Positions 30,901-63,637 of a stretch of 64,000 nt of DNA are shown one piece after another. The position numbers and the translations under genes were made by a program. Position 1 is the first letter of the stretch. The number at the start of each line of letters is the position of its first letter. The DNA comes from Branchiostoma floridae (lineage: Eukaryota; Chordata; Leptocardii; Amphioxiformes; Branchiostomatidae): positions 10,195,986-10,259,985 of the forward strand of contig NC_049988.1 of the NCBI RefSeq assembly GCF_000003815.2. Reading direction: 5' to 3'. The notes below the pieces were generated by a model. It was not told where the DNA came from. It did no database searches and saw nothing but the letters and a program-made list of their open reading frames with translations.

Positions 30901-33900
30901 TTGACAACAAACGGTTTCATATTCATAAAAAGACAGAAGATAAATGTACAATTCCATGTCATCAAACAAACTGCTGACTGGACAAGAACTGTATCCATCC
31001 ATTCATAAGGGCTGACCAAGCATTCTATTTATAGCCTAACCCTCATGAATGAAAAATCACCCCTGCCATAAAAATGCTGACTATTTGTCTCCTCCTTTTG
31101 ACCTGCCTTCTATTTTTATCATGGGGTGTTGAATTTCAATAAACTAGTAACCTTCGAACTTGACATTTTGTCCTGGTACTAAACTGCGACTGTCAAAGAC
31201 AACAGCAAATCCTAATCTGTTAGATGATGGAAAAATAAAACTACCAATAAAAGTCTTATGTGTTTGCCCCTTTCTGCCTTAAGAACAGCTGCAAAAAGAT
31301 GTTCTGTGCAAAGAAAATTAAGACGGATGGCTTACATTATGTTTTGCTGTATCATTAACACTATGCCAAGGCCTATATAATACCTTCAGTACATGAAAGA
31401 GAATACCTCAGGTTATTTAGTACTGTTTACATTGCCACTGGACTTTCCCTGAAGAACAAATCACCCATTCAAACAGCTAATTCCACTAAGGTAGTTGACC
31501 TAATTAGTATGACTTCAGTCTTCAAAGCATCTGTCCATGTACAATCTTACAACTAATCAGAAACTGCATAATAGTGCACTAAATACATATCATTTTCTTG
31601 CAACCTATATTCATGCCAATATAAAAGGCTAGGTAGGTTGAAGAGAAATACAAGGAAGTTTTCTCATTTGCTGGAAACACATATTGCACAGGGAATGTTT
31701 TATTTGTTATCCAATTTTCAAGTGGTCTGGCTCAATTTTCATAACACAGTACCTTCACCCATCAAAACAAGAGGGGCTAAAAAATATCTTGACACTCACT
31801 ACTATTCAAGATCTGATTCAACATCCCTTCATAAAAATTATTACATATTTAAGACAAAGGCTTCCAGTGAAGAATGACTTCTATCCATCCTCAAGACATG
31901 AATACCATTGTGTTCTTGCCAGGCTTTTTCAGCGTGGGGGACCTCTATGCTGTGATTTGGATCCCCTATGCTGTGATTTGGATCCCCTATGCTGTGATTT
32001 GGATCCCCTATGCTGTGATTTGGATCCCCTATGCTGTGATTTGGATCCCCTATGCTGTGATTTGGTCCCCTTTACTGTGTTTCAACTAACAAATGGGAGT
32101 TTTCTAACAAAGGTAAGATAAAGTTGGCTATATTTCCCTATATTTGGCCCTCAAAATGCAGGAAATAGTGTTTCAGGGGTTAAAGCAGATTTAAAAATTT
32201 TCAAGTAGAGGATTCCCCCAGACCCCTTACAATGATCACACCTCCACCGTGTAACACATAGCTTTGCTGTGCTATGAAAAACATTCTGGTGAGACCACTG
32301 ATTGACACTATAGGGTCCGTCCATATGGTGATGACATATGGCTACAGGGTTAGAACTTGTTTTATTGACATAAGGCTTTTCACTCACAAATGTTACACCT
32401 AACACTTAGCAGGGTGGACCTTATGAGAGGTCATAGGTCACGACCCTGAGAGGAAGAGGAAGGGACCCTTGTATGTTTTGTAAATAGCTGGGAGTCAGAT
32501 TTTCTCTTCACCGTGAAAGTTCCTCTTTTGATGCATATCCCTGTGCTAAAATGACCAAATTGGTATCTTTCAATAACCTGCCATTTATAATCCATATTGA
32601 CTAGTAAAAGCAAAATTGCACAAATCATCATGGATAATGGAAGTTTTTGTCAGTAAAAGCTTTGTTTGTTTCAAACCCTATTCATTCCTAATGCTCTGTC
32701 TACCAGAAAATCAAATATTTGCTGTCTAAAATCTACTTAAAAGACAACCAACCTACCTTGTCATTAGTGTGGGTTTTGGAGATTAAAACATGGTTATCAT
32801 GGAAAGGAAGCAAAACCAGTTGTACTGAGTATGGTTTTACGAAATGTTTTTACACCATCATTTGTAAAAACATACATGTATATCATTAGAATTGCTAGAA
32901 CATGTACAGTATAGTCTATAGATACGGAAGAGTTGTTAGATACTGGTATATTCAAACCTGAGTGTTTTTACGTAGTATAACATTCTTCCTACAAAATCAC
33001 AGGCTTCAGTCGGTATAACAAGCAGCTACATCAACAGTATCATCTCCTTTCATCACAGATAATACATAGATATTATCCTGACCAGACACATGGTTGAGAT
33101 TACAGACAACAGGCAGGTGTGCAGGGGTGGTCACACCCAGGGTAGTAACCTATGATACACAATCTCCCACTGTCAGGCTCTGACTGGGTATCCTATAGGC
33201 CTGACCAGTGGCATCACTTGGCATAATGGTACATGGTGTTTGGCCTAGAGCCTCAATACAAGCAGAAAAGGCTGCTATAGGTATGGTATAGTCAGACTAG
33301 GTGTTATCCTGCTAGAATCCCTCCCCACATACCAGGTGACTAAGTCTCCTGAACAGACAGCACTACTCAGGTATGTCAGGTATACAGGAGGGGCCACACC
33401 AGCTAGCCTGCAGGGCCACATGAGCATTGTCTCTCTATACTTGGCTAAACTCCAAGCAGATAGGTACAATGTATCTATATTCGTTCAGCATTCATGGGAG
33501 GCTTTATAAACTTTACATAGTTTTCAATTTGGTGTTGATGTTTTTTAACAAAATGCATAAAATGGTACTTTGCTATAGTATGTTACAAAATGATAAGTGA
33601 CAAGGCATAGGTTACAAAAATGAGGTGAAACTATATATCTGCTTGGAGATTACCCATGGCACCATCCATGACGGTCTTGCAGAAAAATTGAACAAAAACT
33701 GGAAACTGAAGATAAAATGTAAATCTTGAAACTTTCGTGGTATTTCATATTTTCATGATTTTCGCGATGATCCCTCCAGTGCAAATTTGTGATGCCAAAA
33801 ATATGCTCCTTTGTATAACTCCATACTGTACTAAAAATTGTTTCAATCAATCATTCAATGACAAATTTAAAACACAGCAAAACCTTCTTAACTACTGGTA

Positions 33901-53900: not shown

Positions 53901-56900
53901 CAGATGTGCACTGCTGACGGATGGAGGAAGTTGGATGTATGAACGGGAGGTGCCCTGTTCTCACGCGGCGAACGTTCTCTTTTCTCACGAGAGCATGCGA
54001 GAGTACACGCATCAACATGAAGGGAAAGACCCAAACCATGACGTAAGTACGGTGAACACAAAGGAGGGAGGGAAGAACGAAACGATACCCATGATAATTA
54101 CTGGGACGACAAAGCTCGTCAGTTTACATCAAATGCAGGGGAAACTCATGAAAGCGACGAGCGATTTTAGTTATTGGTGATCGTGCTTCATTTTGATCTG
54201 AAGACCTCACCATCCTGCCTTCGCTTCAGGGTTGCTTCTACGAGAGAGGTACCGCGGGAGCTCATCAGGCTGCGTTATGGTTTCATAACCAAATAAGATT
54301 TTGTCTGGAGGCTGACAGCGGTAGACATAGTTCAGGTATTCACTTCTCTCCGAGGACCCAAACGTTAAGGTTTTTAGCGACAGTATTGGGCAACCGGGAT
54401 CGTAAAAGTCTTGTACATATCATACATTGAAACAAATGCTATCTTTGGAGTACTTGCGGTACTTGTATTTGTAGTAGTAATTATTTTGTTGCCTTTGTTT
54501 CTTTGAGTTCCTTGAAATTTATAACTCTTACTCGAAGTTAGTCGTTTGGATGTTGCTCGAAATTTGTTGTAGAACACCAATTCATCTTTTGGGCTTTTGT
54601 TTCCTTTCGTAGCTGAGCTCAGAAGAAAGACTTTAGTCCTTGTCGAAATTATTTGCGACGTCCTTCATTTTATAGTACTTACGTTTTAATCTCCATAAAA
54701 TTGCATGATGCATCACGATGACCCTCAAGCAACTGGTAAACAGGTCTTTCATTAAAAAAAAAGATAGATACGGAGTACCGTGCGCAATTTGACATACGTA
54801 CGTCAGCTGCAGTGAAGTGATATACTGGATATTGAGTCTAAGGTTATGGTTTAGCTGGCATGGTGCACAAGAGCTTGTTGATTGGCTGCTGCGATGACTT
54901 ACTCATGGTCGTGATGAGGTCTTCTCTGACTCTGTTTGGATTTATCCTGCTCGGTCGGGCCATCGGCATCTTTGTTTGTATGTTTCTTTCTGCCCGATCG
55001 CCTGCTTCGCTTGCTTTTGCTTGGCTGTGTATCGGAATTAGCGTCTCCCTCTGCATGCAAGTGCGCGTGCCCGTCCGCCTGTGCATAGCCATTCCTCTGT
55101 GTGTGACCGTTGGCTTGCACGTGGGGAGCGTGTCCGTTCAAATACAGGATGGGGTTAATTTCGCCACTGGTGTGGTCGTCATCACTCGTGTGTATGACGC
55201 CATTTGCTTGGGGCGTGGACTTTGAAGTTTCGTCACGTGGCATAGCAACTGTTACGGTCATGTGGCCCTCACTGCCCACGCAGACGTCCCCATCCGAGCA
55301 CGGGGCCGGGCTATTCGGGGATGTGGTGTTGCCGCCTCCTTTCCCGTCCGCCGTCTTGCCGTCTCCCTGCGTGTCCTTCTCCTCAGTCGGGCTTGTCTTG
55401 GGCGTGGACTTACCACTCCTCTTTCTATATATGAAACAATATTAATTGAAAAAAAGCTGCTCAGGTCTACGCCCTTTCGTGCTACTTTACAGTCCAGCAA
55501 CATGGAAAATGTACTCCTCGCGTATTCATGACACCACGTTACACGACAACGAGTAAATCAACAATGACGTCACATCAAAGAACAATGATGTCAACATCCA
55601 CGAGATCGCACGGGACAATGAGTTATGGGATTGCACTCAAACTTGTCTCAGCATCGACAGGGGTTCCATTCCATGGAAGCATGTTCCAGAATATGTCATA
55701 CAGGGAGCCGCGCTGGAGTCTGCTTTGTGAGAATTCAAATGGTAGTATTTCATTTTCCAGCGCAGCATATATCCAAAAACAAGCCATATTTTTCAATAGC
55801 CACGTGAATGACAGTAAGAGTGAGAGAGAGAGGGGGGAGGGAGAGAGGGAGGGAGGAGGAGAGAGAGATAGAGAGGGAGAGAGACAGACAGAGAGAGAGA
55901 AGGAGACAGTAACTTCTTGAAGGTAGGTTTTCACGACAACTGAGTTGACACTTTTGTATGGCAGATTCTGGAACTGCTTCAGGGGACTGGGATGCATGAG
56001 TGCCGGGGCGCAATGGTAAACTGTTGGGAAGTTCCGCTGTGGTAGTTCAGGTAGGTAAAGGAGCATGCACGAGCGTTGAAGATGTCGGATCGGAAGATGT
56101 GATGATGGTTACTTGTATGTATGTATGTACGTAGGCATGTATGTATGTATGTATGTGTGTTAGTTACTTAGTTAGGTTGCTAGCTGATTCTATGTAACAA
56201 TGGTAGGCGTCTCTGATAGGCCGCTTTAGTGAGTGTGGTTTGGAATCATTTACAAAATTTTGTAACGAACATAACGGTCTGTGCCCCTTACATTCTTCAG
56301 GTATGGTCCATACCATATAACACATTTCATTTCTTTTTAGGCAGTCAGTCAGCTGATATCAGATGTTGGCATTGTCCTTTACATTCATATAAAACGATCA
56401 CTCGCATAATGAGGACATATGAATAAGACAAATGCAGGGGCACAACGGCTCAGTTTGTTCGTAAAAGAGAAGAAGGCACAGGGCAGATACAATAGCAAGA
56501 CACGTCCCAATGTCATCGAGGAGGCAGAGACAAAGAAACGTCTACAAAATATCTTGAAAATTTATTTACATATTGATATTCCTTAAATAAACCGCATTAG
56601 GTAGGAAATCAATTGGCAGTCCATGTCCATTATGTTTTCCATATCGATGATTTGAATAAAATTTATTTGAATGAGCCACTTGTTTGTGGGTATATCTATG
56701 TGTTCAGTCCAATGACAGCCAAAGCCTGACGATTTTACGCTGAATGGTGGCTTCGGTATATGATAGCTGTTACTTCTCAATCTCTACCTTATAGGATTTG
56801 TAAGACACTGGGTATTGTGGTCAAACAACAACCACCTGACATGCTGGCCAGAGAATGCTATATGTTTTTTTTCATGCTTTCACACGCTGTGATAAATGTC

Positions 56901-59900
56901 GTCGCAGTAGTCTTCAATATTTTCGTGGGTACACAATAGAGTTTTATCATTTGTAGAGGTTATTTCTTTACATGTACAAAATTCGGGCATAGTTCTAGAG
57001 ACGCTTTGTCGCTGCTTTGCAGTTCCTTTCTTACTCAGTACAGTGTCAGTACAGATGAAGAAGCCAGAGAGTGAACAGCAGTACACGGAAGGCACGTTAT
57101 GCACACACGGGGTGTTGGAGGGATGGAGGGGAGAGGACATGAAAAGGAAAGGAATTATACAGCATGCGCTGAGTACTTCTGGAATCCGTACAGTGATGCC
57201 AGAATAGTCTCCCTCCTTTAGATGTTTTGATATAGAAATCAACTGGGAATCAATTTTGCTTAATTGCACATTTTCCCTTCTGCATCTGCAAATGGTACTT
57301 GTATGTTGAAGCTTTTTTTTTTCAGTGGGGCTGTTTGGAACTAATCATTGTCCAACCGAAATTCCTTCCAAAATCCCGCGCACGCGCCAGGATACAGCTT
57401 ATTACATATTCTAGCCTATCGGAAGTCATCCCGGAGAAGACCTTTTGTGAGATGCTTGGCTGTCCCAGTGATCGCTGGTGAAACGATTATTGATCCTCAT
57501 AATGACGTCACAACCTTACAGGCAACATTAGATGGCAGAAACGGCGGGAAGCCCTTGTTGGAGCACCAGCTGCGCGCTCTCGGCTGAAACATGTTCCATA
57601 AATGATGCAACTGAGGAATGCATTTCCGTCTGATTCTGACAGTACAGTCCACATGTGACGAGCAGCAGCGCCACCTGCCGGCGTCCATTGACGCGACAAC
57701 AGCTGCAGAGAGGTTTTCCACTGTACAGCTCAAAGTTCTCAACTCTTTTGGACAGTTCAGGTGAGGGCCATGTCCTTCGTGATTTCAGACAGAGCCATTG
57801 CAGGTCGCACGAAATTTTGGAAGCCTCGCGGGCCCATGAGCTCAGTTTGTTCATGCTTTTAATGAGTTCAAGCATGGTTAACGCCGCCCGGTCCCGCTCA
57901 AACTCGAGCTGCGTCCGCCTCCAGGACCACCGCCCTCTTGCGGTCTAGAAGGTGCATAGGAAATCGGAAGGTTTTCGGGCTTGAGTAGCTATTCCAGGAA
58001 TTGCGAGTATTGCATTCACCACGACACGAGCCGAACTTTAAGATATGAAAGTTACAACAGGACCATGCATGAGTATAAGTCCTTTCCCGGGTGGGAGAGG
58101 AGAGAAAGCTCTATGGGAAGCAAGCGTCGTGAATTTGTTCAGAGGCGAAAGGGAGAGGGAATAGTGACGTAGTGACGTGTGTAATTGGAAGGGAATGCGT
58201 CAGGCATAGCGAAGAGGATAAACAGTGACAAGTGACGAACAACCGATGCACTTGAACAGTAGTTGTTTCTTGTAACAAAGAACACCGTGAGCATGAACAC
58301 TCATGTCATGTATACCTCAACAAGCCACCTTAGTTAGAGACACACCCATACAAAAAAACTGTCCTACTTACCCTCTGCGGACCGCACTCCTTTAAAAAGG
58401 CGACATGGTGGAGAAGAAAAGACGTTAAGGTACCGGAAAGGGGTGGGTGTACGATAGGTGCGACTTGCATGCACGTGTGATGATGTAGCATTCATGCGTT
58501 CACGTTCACATCTTGTACACTCACAGAAAGGCGACTGGAGACCCCCTAGGTACCGTTGCTGGTCAAATCAGCCACATAAGATTGTTGGATAGACCCATGT
58601 TTTAGCAAAGCAGTAGGTAGCTTTCTAAATGATGATCAGTGAACCAGTTTCATATTAGGTTAAATCGTTACTTCATCAGGCAACAAAGAGAAATGAAGTA
58701 AGCTGAAACTATTGCCGTAGTTAGCGTCAGATTCTGCAGACCAATTTCAGGTCAGAGGTTGCCTGATAAGTGTGTGAAAAGCTAACGTCAGACGAAGATA
58801 GCCCACACAATGAATTACAATGCAGGACAGAAGTGAGAACATGCCCATGCCCAGACTTTGGTAAGTATGCCCGACCAGAACAAAGTGAGCAAGGCGTACA
58901 CTTGCGGCCAGGCATACGTCATGCAGGCATCATCAGTTCATCAGCTGCCTACAGGTCTGAGATAGGCACCTGATGATTGCCACAGCAGCGACAGTCAGAG
59001 GAACAAAAGCCATCAGGCACCTCTTCACGTGTACCTAGGGGGTCTTTTGGTATCGCATGAGCCAAGCTTACATGATGGTCAAGAATGAACAGGTGTCATT
59101 TTAGGTCATGACTGGTACGTCTTTGCGAACTTTGGTTTGCATTCAAGAATTTTGTGTCGACAATGATAGAGTAAATTCTCTATTCAACTGCCAATTTGAG
59201 CAAACTTCTTTTATGTTTGTAACCAGTCGACCCATGCACCAAGACAATAGTACTATGACATACATGCAGACACACATGGTATACATACTTATTCCCCAAC
59301 CCATATGCACCAAAGCAACATGCATACACAAGTACTGACGTCATCACTGCTCCTAGGATACGATTAGCCGTGAATGACCGGCCTAAGTAAAGACAGACAT
59401 GAAAGCACAGGTCATGGGTAATAAGTTACGGATCATGTCTGAAGCCACACCTTCCCCTCCCTTGGTTGACGTGGGATACATGTCATGACGCTCCGAGCAA
59501 ATCAAACACAATTTCTTGGTACTGTCCCTGGTCTACCTCTGCGACATTGAAGAGACAAGGTGGCAGGAATCCACTCAACAGACAGGAATAAACAGTCACT
59601 TCAACCAGTAAGACGATCTTAGGAACACAGCCGATTCGATCTATCTCACCGTCCAGCTTTTTTCTTTTGTTTGAAACGTAGTCAAAAGGACAAATTTAGG
59701 ATTAGGGACTTTATGGTCGTATAGATCAGCGACATGCCCTCAAAGTTAGAAATAAAAACAAACAAAAAGCATAGTTTTCCTAACAACCTGGCAGGGTAGG
59801 TGCAACTTGTAACGTTCATTACCATGCAGACAAATGGAAGTAATTTGGAAGATGTTCCTTACTGGAATCCCCACCCGGTGCCACCGAATATTATTGCAAG

Positions 59901-62900
59901 GCCGAGAATGGTTCCTGCGACTATCCCAATGATTGTGCTAGACATACCACCTGGGCGGCGTGTGAGGAGAGAACGAAACTCTATCAGAATTTCTGAAATG
60001 TGGAACACTTTTAGCCTGAGGAAGATAGTCATGAAAAAAGTGTTATTGTTTTGAAATAAAGATGAAAGGGAGAACTGTTGGCGCAGGAAGATAAGAGGGA
60101 AGGAAGTTGGGCGATTTGCCATGGAGGAGGGCACATCCTAGCCAAAGAAGTACATGATGTTGAATGTTAGGTCTAAGCTTTTGTCTCTGAAAGGTGGACC
60201 GTTGATTTTAAACTATTCCAAAGCCTAGTTTCTTTAAGATGAAGATGTTAACTCAGTGGGATGAAGGAAGATTTAAGGAGACTTAAGGTGTTTAGTGGTA
60301 CAGTTCGGTGAAATCTAATCTTTCTTGAGGGTGGGTCACTTGCAACAATCATGCCTAGAGTTACGTATGATGACGCTGGAACTGGACAGGAGTTAGAGCG
60401 GCTGCCTTGATGTTTCTACTTTCTACAGAAGCAGAACTGGTCAATGAACGTTTCAAAGGCAGCCACTGAACATGCAGAAATCAGCAACGTATGATTTGCC
60501 ATGATGAAAATTGACATGCAGCGGGATGGAGACAGCGTGAGGGATGGAACAGAACGTCACATGCAGCGTACGTCAGAGTTGGGACGACTTGGGGCACTAC
60601 AGGGTGCAGCGAATGAAAGAAACCCTTAGGGTGATGGTCAAAAGCAGAGGTAGACAATATGGCGACCGTTGGTATGTTTTACTGCCAATGAACGAACGTC
60701 ATGCAACATCCGGGGTATTCATGCTTTGCGCATGCCTAATATCCCACGCAACCAGGTGCATTACGGGATAAGAGGTGGGGCTTTGTCATGAATGAACAAA
60801 TGGCACAATGTCCTAAGATATGATCAAGAATGCATACCCTTCGACGGCTTAAAGTTAAGGAAAATCGGCCTAGGAAAAATGAAAAATTGTTGTGACTTTA
60901 CGTAGATGAAACAGCAAAAATCAGTGCTGGGTATTTAGGGAATAAGGACGAGCAGTGGCAATAGGTAAGGGCATGGAGGAAACGATAGAAGGATATGCAG
61001 TCCTGAGCCAAACTTCAACTAGACACGGCACGAATGCATTGAAAGTGCTTACTGAAATCCCCACCCCAGTCCACCGAATACAATAGCAATGGCTAGCAAT
61101 GTACCCGCCATGGAACCTATGATTGCGTTAGTTGTACCTGGGGGGACAGGAGTGGGAACAGGCGGTGAACAAGCTGGTTAAAACGCGGGATCAGAACCAG
61201 AGTGCGGGGTCATATTCATAACAAAGATTAGTCAAGTTAGTCAAACAAACCAATTAAAACAATGTGGAGACAGGTAACGAAGGACAGTTCAGGTAGACCC
61301 ATATAGTGCTGAAAGCGAATCATCGATATTTTTCTACATAAAATGTAATTGAAGTAAGTAAGCCAACTTTACAAAAAAGATGATAATGACAAGTGCACCA
61401 GCGATAAGCACGTGAAAAAGCAGATGTTGTAAAAGATTACAATGATGTTACTCATGTATATATATATATATATATAAAATATTATATCATACACCACTTT
61501 CTAGCTGTGATGTTTTCATCTTACTCTCTGATCGTGAATGTACCAAAGTTACATTAATCCAATTTTTACTATATCAAAGAAAACACTGATATAATATTTG
61601 ATTTTATCTCATAGAAAAAACGATAATTACTTTCAGACATTTAAAAATGGGAGAGGTTACGTTTTGAAAATAAAAATGATTTGAAGTGAGAGCGAATGAA
61701 GGTAGGTAAAACGAAAATGCGCACATCCAAAGGGAACTTTAGTAAATGGACACACATTCTACACATGATATCACCTGATGTATGTTTTGAAGTTTTGACT
61801 GATTGCTGACAATAGCGTGTCATAGTTCACCTTGGTTTCCAAGCATACCATCTCCGTTGTTCGCTGGGGGGACATAGTTACCGCAGTCCCTGCCCCTCCA
61901 CTCCTTCGTGTCACACAGGCATCTGTCTTCATTCGTGCAATTCTGGAGGAACAGTGATGAGTACAACAGAACATTCAAATCGAGTAAGAACACTTGTAGT
62001 TGGAAAACTTACTTTGGTTCGTGGTAGGCAATCTCATTAAATCAATATTTAAGAATAATGAAATCCATACCAAAGACATTGTAAATTATGATAATGCTGT
62101 TCATTAATAGTTAGGGAATATGTTATGCTTATTGACTAATGCAATAATTAATACCAAAACAAATTCACGGGTCTTTAATAGTGTGCAAGTGTGCAGATGT
62201 TGACACACTGGCAGCACCAAATCCGTAGGTGTTTTGGGCACCTTTAGACAGATTAGCCGTGAGGCTCGGTCGGCGTCACTCCACCGTCATTGGGGCAGGG
62301 GCATGGTGAGTATCGAACTCAGGACCTACTGATTCTGTTTCCAATGCTCTAGCCGTTATGCCACACAGATATTAGCGTTCACACATGTCAAAGACCAGGA
62401 AGTTTTGAAGCTGGTTCGTATAGGACATCTAGTTAAGCATTTATTTTCCTGAAACGTTGACCTGAGTTGTCCACTTACTCCATGTCCAGAACAGGGCAGC
62501 CCATTGACGCCTACAGGACAGGGCGTGATGTTGAAGCTGGAGACCTCCACACACCGCCCACTGTGGCACATCTTGTTGGTGCCGCAGGTTGTCCCGTCCT
62601 GGACATATCCGATGTTATTACTGTCATCCAGTAGCACGTGGCCACCCCTAGCAAACATGAAAAACACACTGCATTTCATCTATAATTGGCAGTTTCACAT
62701 GAACCTCGTTGGTTGAGGAGAATCGTCGCTTTGATATACAGATTCTATTGGTGTTCAATGATATCACATTTTTATATGTCCTTAAGGTTTGATCAGATAT
62801 TAGAAGAAGTAGATGACACATGGCCATTGCATCATCTCTATTCCATCTATCTATTCTGTGTTCTCGACAAAGCCTGATTTCTGCTAATGATGATGGCTTG

Positions 62901-63637
62901 CTTGATCCCTAGCTAGCTCGGGTTGTTGCGACGTCCATAATGGGTTCTCAGCTTACAATAGTCAAGGAATTCCCGCCCACATGTACAGAAGTTCTTACTT
63001 GCAGTGCATAGTCTTGCCAGTCCTTGGGTAACTCTTGGACGTCAGTGAGCCGTCCAGAACGCCGACCCGGGGGACTGTCACGTTACCGTCGCACAGAAGG
63101 TAGCCACAGAAAATGTCTCTGAAACATCACCAAATATGTCAACATTTGCCGTAGGGTGAGACAATAAAAAACGTACATGCCATTATCGAACATGGTGCAA
63201 TAGTGGGTACACAAAAAGGAAAATTCTATGAAGGTTAGACATCTAGGTAATAAGATACGCAGCTACTCAAGAGCAACTGGATATGATTGTGGACACGGTC
63301 AGACGTTTCAGACAACATCTGTTGTCTTTCGTCAGTGACACTGGAGAGATCTTTTTGTACAGCAGGTTTTCATATCTAAGCTATGAAATAATCTCCTTTG
63401 CATATCAATTCATGGCTAGGATATAAAAAAAGGGCTCTCAAATGAGATCTCTCCAGTGTCACTGACGAAAGACAACGGATATTGTCTGAAATGTCTGACC
63501 ATTTCCAAGAAGGAAACTATTGACATACTTTGGTTCACATTTGTCCCAACCGCCATCTTCGCTTTTCCCGCAGTTGCCATCCCGGTTTCCATTGATGTTG
63601 AGCCTCTGATAACAGACGTCATCTGCTGTGTACACAT
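50805..63637 (-). CDS. ADAM22/23-like: ADAM11/22/23-family gene, 3' half (5' end outside window)
   Basis: Type I membrane 'disintegrin and metalloprotease' family; vertebrate ADAM11/22/23 lack protease activity and act as neuronal LGI receptors (family knowledge). In order: cysteine-rich exons 63529-63637 (CYQRLNINGNRDGNCGK), 62999-63118 (DIFCGYLLCDGNV) and 62479-62647 (GGHVLLDDSNNIGYVQDGT), EGF-like 61831-61942, a TM exon (61053-61137 or 59863-59950, both ending G.GWGF), 18-nt exon 58372-58389, and cytoplasmic exons 54903-55424, 51202-51396 and 50805-50967. [19 protein letters not shown] and IVLGGTGWGF of vertebrate ADAM23 align closely. The long tail recalls ADAM22, so a pre-duplication member is inferred. 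Phases agree at every junction. The C terminus is the least certain part, with alternative ends possible. Confidence 0.88.
51202..51396 (-). CDS. ADAM22/23-like: ADAM cytoplasmic proline-rich exon
   Basis: 195 nt, phase 2-2; acceptor aacaccgtgactag, donor gtgagt. Encodes (E)HENKVRRGPPPPPSHET near its start and KHDGPPPPRFV at its end: two polyproline blocks with flanking basic residues, typical SH3- or EVH1-domain ligands. The intervening part is His/Asn-rich with FVAKWIEDVNYN. Phase matches both neighbours. Confidence 0.7.
51397..54902 (-). other. ADAM intron, no firm exon
   Basis: Open minus frames at 53210-53398 (a phase-2-compatible acceptor ccttgcctctcaag, ends IRTS) and 53603-54061 (152 codons, no acceptor) are noted, but neither has homology. 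Nothing else recognised. Confidence 0.35.
54903..55424 (-). CDS. ADAM22/23-like: ADAM long cytoplasmic exon (charged, NGH repeats)
   Basis: 522 nt, phase 2-2; acceptor gtttcatatatag, donor gtaagt. Reads (G)KRSGKSTPKTSPTEEKDTQ, then Gly/Thr/Asp-rich sequence, repeated NGH / NGY / DGHAH units (LNGHAPHVQANGHTQRNGYA), and the basic block KSKRSRRSGRKKH before QRRPHHDH. A disordered, low-complexity cytosolic tail. A perfect donor (G|gtaagt) also occurs after its first 11 nt, and TAA at 54899-54901 ends the frame at once if the intron is retained. Confidence 0.75.
55826..55910. repeat. GA-rich low-complexity tract
   Basis: Purine-only gagagagaggg-type sequence of about 85 bp in an ADAM intron; generates spurious Glu/Arg or Leu/Ser frames. 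Confidence 0.95.
56115..56160. repeat. (TATG)n microsatellite
   Basis: Interrupted tgta/tatg repeats with two variant units. Confidence 0.9.
56880..57033 (-). CDS. Candidate alternative last exon of the ADAM gene
   Basis: Acceptor ctgacactgtactgag, phase-2 entry, 50 codons then TGA at 56880-56882. Would follow the 18-nt exon as (G)KKGTAKQRQSVSRTMPEF and end ENIEDYCDDIYHSV, replacing the long tail by a short one. The start KKGTAK resembles KRSGKS of the main exon. Phase is right and the frame is open for 129 codons, but there is no homology proof and the acceptor is only fair. Confidence 0.4.
57480..57960. other. GC-rich block with several open frames
   Basis: Locally GC-rich sequence, open in all three minus frames and partly on plus. 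No family recognised and no phase-consistent splice pair. It could be a CpG-rich regulatory region or a transposon remnant. Confidence 0.3.
58372..58389 (-). CDS. ADAM22/23-like: ADAM 18-nt juxtamembrane microexon
   Basis: Acceptor gcctttttaaag and donor gtaagt enclose six codons' worth, phase 2-2, reading GWGF-Q-SAVRR-G across the junctions. Vertebrate ADAM22/23 have K-N-(V/I)-(K/R)-(K/R) directly after GWGF, so the basic stop-transfer residues are supplied here. Skipping keeps the frame (Q-KRSGK). Confidence 0.65.
58390..59862 (-). other. ADAM intron after the second TM exon
   Basis: No exon, RNA gene or clear mobile element recognised. Confidence 0.5.
59863..59950 (-). CDS. ADAM22/23-like: ADAM transmembrane exon B (distal)
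   Basis: 88 nt, phase 1 in, 2 out; acceptor acacgccgcccag, donor gtaagg. Reads (G)GMSSTIIGIVAGTILGLAII then FGGTGWGF(Q). The hydrophobic helix ends in GGTGWGF exactly as in vertebrate ADAM23. One codon longer than exon A, same phases. Confidence 0.92.
61053..61137 (-). CDS. ADAM22/23-like: ADAM transmembrane exon A (proximal)
   Basis: 85 nt, phase 1 in, 2 out; acceptor cctgtccccccag, donor gtaagc. Reads (G)TTNAIIGSMAGTLLAIAIV then FGGLGWGF(Q), closely matching vertebrate ATNLIIGSIAGAILVAAIV-LGGTGWGF. Paralogous to exon B and mutually exclusive by phase: joining A to B would shift the frame. Confidence 0.93.
61459..61480. repeat. (TA)n microsatellite
   Basis: About ten TA units in the intron between the EGF exon and TM exon A. 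Confidence 0.9.
61831..61942 (-). CDS. ADAM22/23-like: ADAM EGF-like exon
   Basis: 112 nt, phase 0 in, 1 out; acceptor cactgttcctccag, donor gtgaac. Reads NCTNEDRCLCDTKEWRGRDC then GNYVPPANNGDGMLGNQ. With PCSGHG of the preceding exon it makes the ADAM EGF-like module (CSGHGVC...C.C...W.G.DC). NCT is a potential N-glycosylation site. The GNNGDG-type spacer leads to the membrane. Confidence 0.92.
62230..62370 (-). mobile_element. tRNA-derived SINE
   Basis: On the minus strand TGGCATAACGGCTAGAGC (A box) and GAGTTCGATAC (B box) lie at tRNA spacing, followed by a non-tRNA part. The flanking stems do not form a full cloverleaf, so this is a SINE head, not a tRNA gene. It sits in the intron just after exon 62479-62647. 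Edges approximate. Confidence 0.6.
62479..62647 (-). CDS. ADAM22/23-like: ADAM cysteine-rich exon (GGHVLLDDSNNIGYVQDGT)
   Basis: 169 nt, phase 2 in, 0 out; acceptor catgtttgctag, donor gtaagt. Reads GGHVLLDDSNNIGYVQDGTT, CGTNKMCHSGRCVEVSSFNI and TPCPVGVNGLPCSGHG. Vertebrate ADAM23 has [28 protein letters not shown] here. NIT is a potential glycosylation site. Confidence 0.95.
62999..63118 (-). CDS. ADAM22/23-like: ADAM cysteine-rich exon (DIFCGYLLCDGNV)
   Basis: 120 nt, phase 2 in, 2 out; acceptor tggtgatgtttcag, donor gtaaga. Reads (K)DIFCGYLLCDGNVTVPRVG then VLDGSLTSKSYPRTGKTMHC(K), aligning with vertebrate DVFCGFLLCTNLTRAPRIG. NVT is a potential N-glycosylation site. Confidence 0.95.
63297..63500. 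mobile_element. Foldback element (inverted arms of about 60 bp)
   Basis: Starts ggtcagacgtttcagacaa and ends ttgtctgaaatgtctgacc; the arms also share ctttcgtcagtgacac and ctccagtgtcactgacgaaa in inverse order, around about 75 bp of loop. Nonautonomous foldback/MITE. Its edge is only 28 bp from the donor of exon 63529-63637. Confidence 0.8.
63529..63637 (-). CDS. ADAM22/23-like: ADAM cysteine-rich exon (CYQRLNINGNRDGNCGK)
   Basis: 109 nt, phase 1 in, 2 out; acceptor gtctttccctcctag, donor gtatgt. Reads VYTADDVCYQRLNINGNRDG then NCGKSEDGGWDKCEP(K). C-Y-x-x-L-N-x-x-G-x-x-x-G-N-C-G is a hallmark of the ADAM cysteine-rich domain. This is the most 5' exon in the window; upstream exons lie beyond base 64000. 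Confidence 0.95.

Follow-up and report, generated by a model that had tools for sequence, protein, structure and literature searches.

A gene of the amphioxus Branchiostoma floridae, a predicted non-proteolytic cell-surface receptor of the ADAM11/22/23 type, appears to encode its membrane anchor in two alternative transmembrane (TM) exons, A and B, and probably in a third one, C. The gene is located on the minus strand of a 64-kb stretch (G000:C10:10195986-10259985, referred to below as the window) from an assembly of 513 Mb in 431 contigs. It extends upstream beyond the window, and the addition of 80 kb gave a gene region of 144 kb. The evidence throughout is the genomic sequence of this one species, read computationally. 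Exons A and B had been described in an earlier note on this DNA; the probable exon C and a cluster of TGCATG motifs that likely serves as a control element are new. These exons form a well-formed, apparently old set of alternatives, similar to an arrangement that has reportedly been seen in vertebrates.

Two homologous transmembrane exons

Exons A and B (Table 1) encode related TM helices, are open throughout and flanked by AG and GT, and have identical phases, exactly where the earlier note had placed them. Over their last 23 codons, 16 of the 23 amino acids are identical, and the codons agree at 17 first, 20 second, and 9 third positions. Just 6 of the 16 shared amino acids are encoded by the same codon, one of them being Trp, a single-codon residue. 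The ungapped alignment of A and B has a BLOSUM62 score of 93, which was not reached in any of 20,000 fixed-register shuffles. As background, 20 additional stretches of 10 kb each (200 kb in total) were covered on both strands; they contained 7,598 candidate exons with 4,259 distinct segments, the best of which scored 30 against A or B. Judged by these scores, the likeness is far beyond chance, in line with the paralogy originally proposed for the two exons. Given that identity at the third codon positions (9 of 23) is so much lower than at the first and second positions, the duplication looks old and maintained by selection at the protein level; a recent species-specific copy is therefore unlikely.

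A probable third exon

A scan for open frames bordered by AG and GT that are entered in phase 1, left in phase 2, and encode a hydrophobic segment returned A, B, and C. It also returned three hydrophobic stretches (from 61496, 59640, and 57208) that showed no likeness to A or B and were rejected. The C segment aligns without gaps to the helices of A (score 36, 8 of 23 residues identical) and B (score 35, 9 of 23). Fixed-register shuffles of the aligned residues gave P values of 5e-5 for C versus A and 2e-4 for C versus B, and a score of 36 was reached by none of the 4,259 distinct background segments. The local introns contain 108 candidates in 60 segments, and the whole 144-kb region contains 2,620 candidates on the minus strand and 2,245 on the plus strand, with A, B, and C included in both sets. 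Once these three exons and the out-of-register versions of A and C are set aside, no local segment scores above 6; the chance of a C-like match within the local introns is estimated as roughly 0.01. Of 23 codons, those of A and C agree at 11 first, 13 second, and 12 third positions, and those of B and C at 12, 12, and 7. C is probably a diverged TM exon of the same set; the previous inventory of two TM exons, while right about A and B, is probably one too low. By eye, A and B both retain a GxxxG motif; in C this motif is missing and a pair of Cys residues is present.

Frame logic and predicted splice outcomes

Starting from the first donor of the EGF-like exon, virtual splicing covered all eight ways of including or skipping A, B, and C, each with and without a candidate microexon. 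Inclusion of any single TM exon resulted in one long frame that ends with the stop at 54901. Because each copy is 3n+1 nt long, two TM exons together break the frame. When A and B are joined, a stop is encountered three codons past the first of the two; each of the four combinations with more than one TM exon ends 3 to 5 codons past the Gln that closes the first of them, 78 to 190 nt before the terminal exon. Skipping all TM exons produces a TM-less protein with a shifted, Arg-rich tail (17 of 54 residues) and a stop at 55260, inside the terminal exon. The second donor (61831), tried with A and with the skipping of all TM exons, led to the same outcome. The earlier predictions that joint inclusion of A and B shifts the frame, making the two mutually exclusive, and that skipping both also shifts it and might give a secreted form were thus borne out in virtual splicing. 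If the presumed terminal exon is indeed the last one, transcripts with two TM exons would be substrates for decay, and those with none would not. The exons also display the features by which mutually exclusive homologous exons are recognized: they are adjacent, have the same phase and lengths not divisible by 3 (85 nt for A, 88 nt for B, and 94 nt for C), and the frame is preserved only if exactly one of them is included. Dual coding of the Arg-rich tail was considered and rejected, as 83% of 5000 synonymous permutations remained open for at least as long (P = 0.83).

A cluster of TGCATG motifs

The 3.5 kb between positions 61830 and 58372 contain 10 copies of TGCATG on the sense strand versus 1.33 expected, making it the most enriched hexamer present in this stretch (P = 1.5e-6, or ∼0.006 after correction for 4,096 hexamers). 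Its reverse complement, CATGCA, is at background (1 copy versus 1.2 expected). None of 1000 dinucleotide shuffles reached 10 copies, and the background maximum was 8 (560 overlapping windows). On the gene strand of the 144-kb region, each of the eight windows listed as richest in the motif (up to 11 copies) overlaps this stretch. One motif follows the end of B by 35 nt, two follow that of C by 21 and 51 nt, and two more are located between the latter pair and the microexon; there are none within 300 nt after A.

The (U)GCAUG sequence is the binding site of Rbfox, and its intronic clusters have been shown experimentally to govern exon choice in mouse Ntrk2 (PMC12435732). In the amphioxus gene, as in the exons described there, a dense cluster of the motif surrounds alternative exons on the transcribed strand; here, however, the introns are short and the candidate sites are both proximal and distal. 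The cluster is likely a control element. Among the papers found in a literature search, judged by titles and the beginnings of abstracts, no report of Rbfox control of Adam23 splicing stood out.

Among other potential regulators, motifs for Nova (YCAY) and MBNL (YGCY) were enriched over the genomic background, but their counts were reached in 127 and 202 of 1000 dinucleotide shuffles, respectively; this enrichment is therefore explained by composition. Motifs for PTB, CELF, and QKI were not significant in the stretch, and TGCT was marginal (P = 0.04). Exclusion by steric hindrance or by splice-site class was unsupported, with introns of 1102 nt (A to B) and 480 nt (B to C) and donors of the GT type. 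Pairing between introns made a weak case: the region has two perfect 15-nt inverted-repeat pairs, and at least one such pair appeared in 18 of 300 shuffles. A perfect 15-nt inverted repeat is found between C and the microexon (58539-58553 and 59031-59045, AGACCCCCTAGGTAC and GTACCTAGGGGGTCT, 477 nt apart), possibly forming an RNA loop or marking the ends of an element. Six other inverted repeats are 76 to 94% complementary.

Proposed mechanism and alternatives

The explanation that accounts best for these observations, and that we consider quite probable as a whole, combines mutually exclusive anchors, enforcement by the reading frame, and a choice likely made by Rbfox. The exons, their phases, the frame outcomes, and the motif cluster are seen in the sequence itself; actual splicing, decay, the action of Rbfox, and the tissues concerned are inferred. 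The membrane-anchor exon would be present as at least two old, diverged copies (A and B), probably three (with C), and exactly one copy would be meant for inclusion. Transcripts with two copies would encode a protein that ends a few codons past the first helix and would be expected to undergo nonsense-mediated decay; those with no copy would encode an ectodomain that lacks a TM segment and carries a shifted tail, terminating in what is presumed to be the last exon. Downstream Rbfox sites usually promote inclusion. In Rbfox-expressing tissues, such as nerve and muscle, the GCAUG sites that closely follow B and C could promote these two exons, leaving A as the default exon, which would fit its having the highest pyrimidine fraction before the acceptor among the compared sites (0.86, versus 0.77 for both B and C).

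Several observations weigh against this explanation. The helix match of C is weak, with 8 or 9 of 23 residues identical, and C has no GWGF end. Its gapped nucleotide alignments are no better than those of shuffled sequences, 22% (versus A) and 77% (versus B) of 1000 of which reach the same score, and one unrelated segment of the 144-kb region, 130612-130474, ties C at 36. The terminal exon and the microexon are predicted from phase and splice sites only. Of the 10 TGCATG motifs, one is inside exon C, and another four, 526 to 755 nt upstream of B, are placed such that their effect could go in either direction. In addition, the motif had been spotted by eye before testing, and eight patterns were tried; the hexamer ranking is the fairer test. 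The shortcomings of C leave a sizable minority chance that the real alternative exons are just A and B, with C being either a third copy in decay or an open hydrophobic stretch that arose by chance. This possibility is countered by the complete absence of background segments scoring 36, the low P values of the shuffles, the small estimated chance of such a match in the local introns, the same phases and AG/GT borders as in A and B, and the two TGCATG motifs just downstream of C.

The control of exon choice could also be simpler. If A and B were co-spliced or chosen at random, exclusivity could come from decay alone, given that all multi-TM combinations stop well before the terminal exon and that no built-in barrier is visible, with introns too long for steric exclusion and GT donors; such an unregulated choice is improbable, as the TGCATG sites right after B and C point to regulation. 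It is only slightly easier to envisage the TM exons as mainly an on/off switch for a secreted ectodomain, with A and B being equivalent in function. The product with no TM exon is open into the terminal exon and could escape decay, and soluble relatives have been reported, such as the ADAM23gamma used in PMC9997507 and the Xenopus ADAM22 isoform ISO3, which lacks the TM region (PMC3055250). Yet the Arg-rich tail shows no sign of selection, and a plain switch would presumably not need two conserved, distinct helices. A much more serious contender, with nearly even chances, is an exon duplication specific to the amphioxus lineage and unrelated to any alternative exon of vertebrate ADAM23. As a lead rather than a test, the human ADAM23-type and ADAM22-type helix cores share 16 and 11 of 23 residues, respectively, with A, 16 and 16 with B, and 8 and 7 with C. 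The equal distances of B are consistent with a lineage-specific duplication, whereas the closeness of A to the ADAM23-type helix and the diverged third codon positions of A and B, which suggest an old duplication, argue against it.

Gene family assignment

Exon translations from the window and the upstream locus L002 were joined into a query of 369 residues with approximate junctions. Among the proteins with solved structures, the only ones compared, the best matches were the ADAM22 chains 5y31, 5y2z, and 3g5c (E value of ∼2e-101, 343 bits, query residues 14 to 364), followed by snake-venom metalloproteinases with 156 bits. The matched ADAM22 chains in PDB stop near the EGF-like region. In Pfam, the Reprolysin (PF01421), Disintegrin (PF00200), and ADAM_CR (PF08516) domains were above the cut-off, EGF_2 was below it (17.2 versus 22.1 bits), and a search with 30 residues of the EGF exon returned no match. 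The active-site motif HQLGHNLGMHDD, encoded in L002 at ∼66105-66248 (window-extended coordinates, upstream of the window), has Gln in place of the catalytic Glu, so that the HExGHxxGxxHD protease consensus is lost. On account of the ADAM22 match, the Pfam domains, and the lost catalytic Glu, the family label given in the earlier note holds at the sequence level, and the gene probably belongs to the non-proteolytic ADAM11/22/23-type receptors. It probably represents the single pre-duplication gene of ADAM11, ADAM22, and ADAM23.

Similarly to these vertebrate proteins, which are non-proteolytic LGI receptors, the amphioxus protein has metalloprotease-like, disintegrin, cysteine-rich, and EGF-like domains, a TM segment, and a tail, in this order, and lacks the catalytic Glu; unlike them, it retains the active-site histidines. 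That the zinc-binding histidines of HQLGHNLGMHDD are kept and the catalytic Glu alone is lost is perhaps an early step toward losing protease activity. The tail of ADAM22 ends in a PDZ-binding sequence; the amphioxus tail has no such end. PMC5316459 places ADAM11, ADAM22, and ADAM23 among the ADAMs without the HExGHxxGxxHD consensus, and PMC3691968 states that B. floridae has one LGI gene.

Comparison with vertebrate genes

Mammalian ADAM23 is said to have an alternative TM exon. If so, the amphioxus gene would share this feature, in addition to a possible soluble form, with the alpha, beta, and gamma isoforms of mammalian ADAM23, and differ from them in its probable third exon and GCAUG cluster. 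Soluble ADAM23gamma is credited in PMC9997507 to Sun et al. 2004, a paper entitled "Two novel isoforms of Adam23." In Xenopus ADAM22, an isoform without the TM region (ISO3) is found beside TM forms with differing tails; the excerpted account adds that no soluble mammalian ADAM22 had been reported up to then and, in contrast to the amphioxus gene, mentions no duplicated TM exon (PMC3055250). Fragments of vertebrate TM sequences had no match in a text search of the literature. Among the papers listed in a separate search, judged mostly by titles and the beginnings of abstracts, nothing recognizable as an amphioxus ADAM22/23 with mutually exclusive exons was found.

The ligand LGI1, which is linked to epilepsy, has ADAM22 and ADAM23 as receptors. 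If anchors were already being swapped by Rbfox-dependent splicing before the gene duplications, the diversity of these synaptic receptors may predate the separate genes, in the form of splice variants. This would raise the rarely asked question of what changes when the membrane helix alone is replaced. A bolder proposal, which we consider rather unlikely, is that the single ADAM11/22/23 ancestor had a three-way, Rbfox-controlled choice of anchors and a soluble form, and that the anchors were partitioned among the paralogs once the vertebrate genome had been duplicated; synaptic receptor types that now have separate genes would then go back to alternative transcripts of a single one.

Gene layout and additional observations

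Table 1. Exons and motifs of the amphioxus ADAM11/22/23-type gene in the window
Feature	Coordinates	Strand	Details
Cysteine-rich exon VYTADDVCYQRLNINGNRDGNCGKSEDGGWDKCEP	63529..63637	-	phase 1 in, 2 out
Cysteine-rich exon DIFCGYLLCDGNVTVPRVGVLDGSLTSKSYPRTGKTMHC	62999..63118	-	phase 2 in and out
Cysteine-rich/EGF exon GGHVLLDDSNNIGYVQDGTTCG...CSGHG	62479..62647	-	phase 2 in, 0 out
EGF-like and stalk exon NCTNEDRCLCDTKEWRGRDCGNYVPPANNGD-G	61849..61942	-	phase 0 in, 1 out
Second donor of the EGF-like exon	after 61831	-	18 additional nt, in frame (GMLGNQ)
TGCATG-rich stretch	58372..61830	-	10 motifs
TGCATG, first bases	60705, 60565, 60520, 60476, 59828, 59324, 59268, 59238, 58925, 58473	-	
TM exon A	61053..61137	-	85 nt, phase 1 in, 2 out, AG/GT borders, TTNAIIGSMAGTLLAIAIVFGGLGWGF
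TM exon B	59863..59950	-	88 nt, phase 1 in, 2 out, AG/GT borders, GMSSTIIGIVAGTILGLAIIFGGTGWGF
Probable TM exon C	59289..59382	-	94 nt, phase 1 in, 2 out, AG/GT borders, RSFTANRILGAVMTSVLVYACCFGAYGLGN
Candidate optional microexon SAVRRG	58372..58389	-	18 nt, phase 2 to 2; predicted only from phase and splice sites
Large presumed terminal coding exon	54899..55424	-	phase 2 in; from phase and splice sites
Cytoplasmic tail from the presumed terminal exon	stop at 54901		KRSGKSTPKTSPTEEK...HHDHE, then stop

The phases of the three window exons that precede the EGF exon chain correctly. The outer coordinates of the earlier note, 61831 and 58372, proved to be the last bases before possible donors; its inventory was right about A and B and had overlooked C, the alternative to the donor after 61849, the microexon unit, and the TGCATG cluster. 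Read-through past the first donor of the EGF-like exon (61820-61849) adds GMLGNQGEL and then a stop, so that intron retention or early polyadenylation there could offer a further route to a soluble form. An alternative terminal exon might be provided by the open stretch at 57896-57988, which has an AG border, is entered in phase 2, and reads YSSPKTFRFPMHLLDRKRAVVLEADAARV followed by a stop. An inverted repeat at 63290-63507 (81-nt arms, 84% complementary, 56 nt apart), immediately following a cysteine-rich exon, resembles an intronic MITE-like element. Elsewhere in the window, a tandem array at 31945-32071 consists of 6.1 copies of a 21-bp unit with 99% matches.

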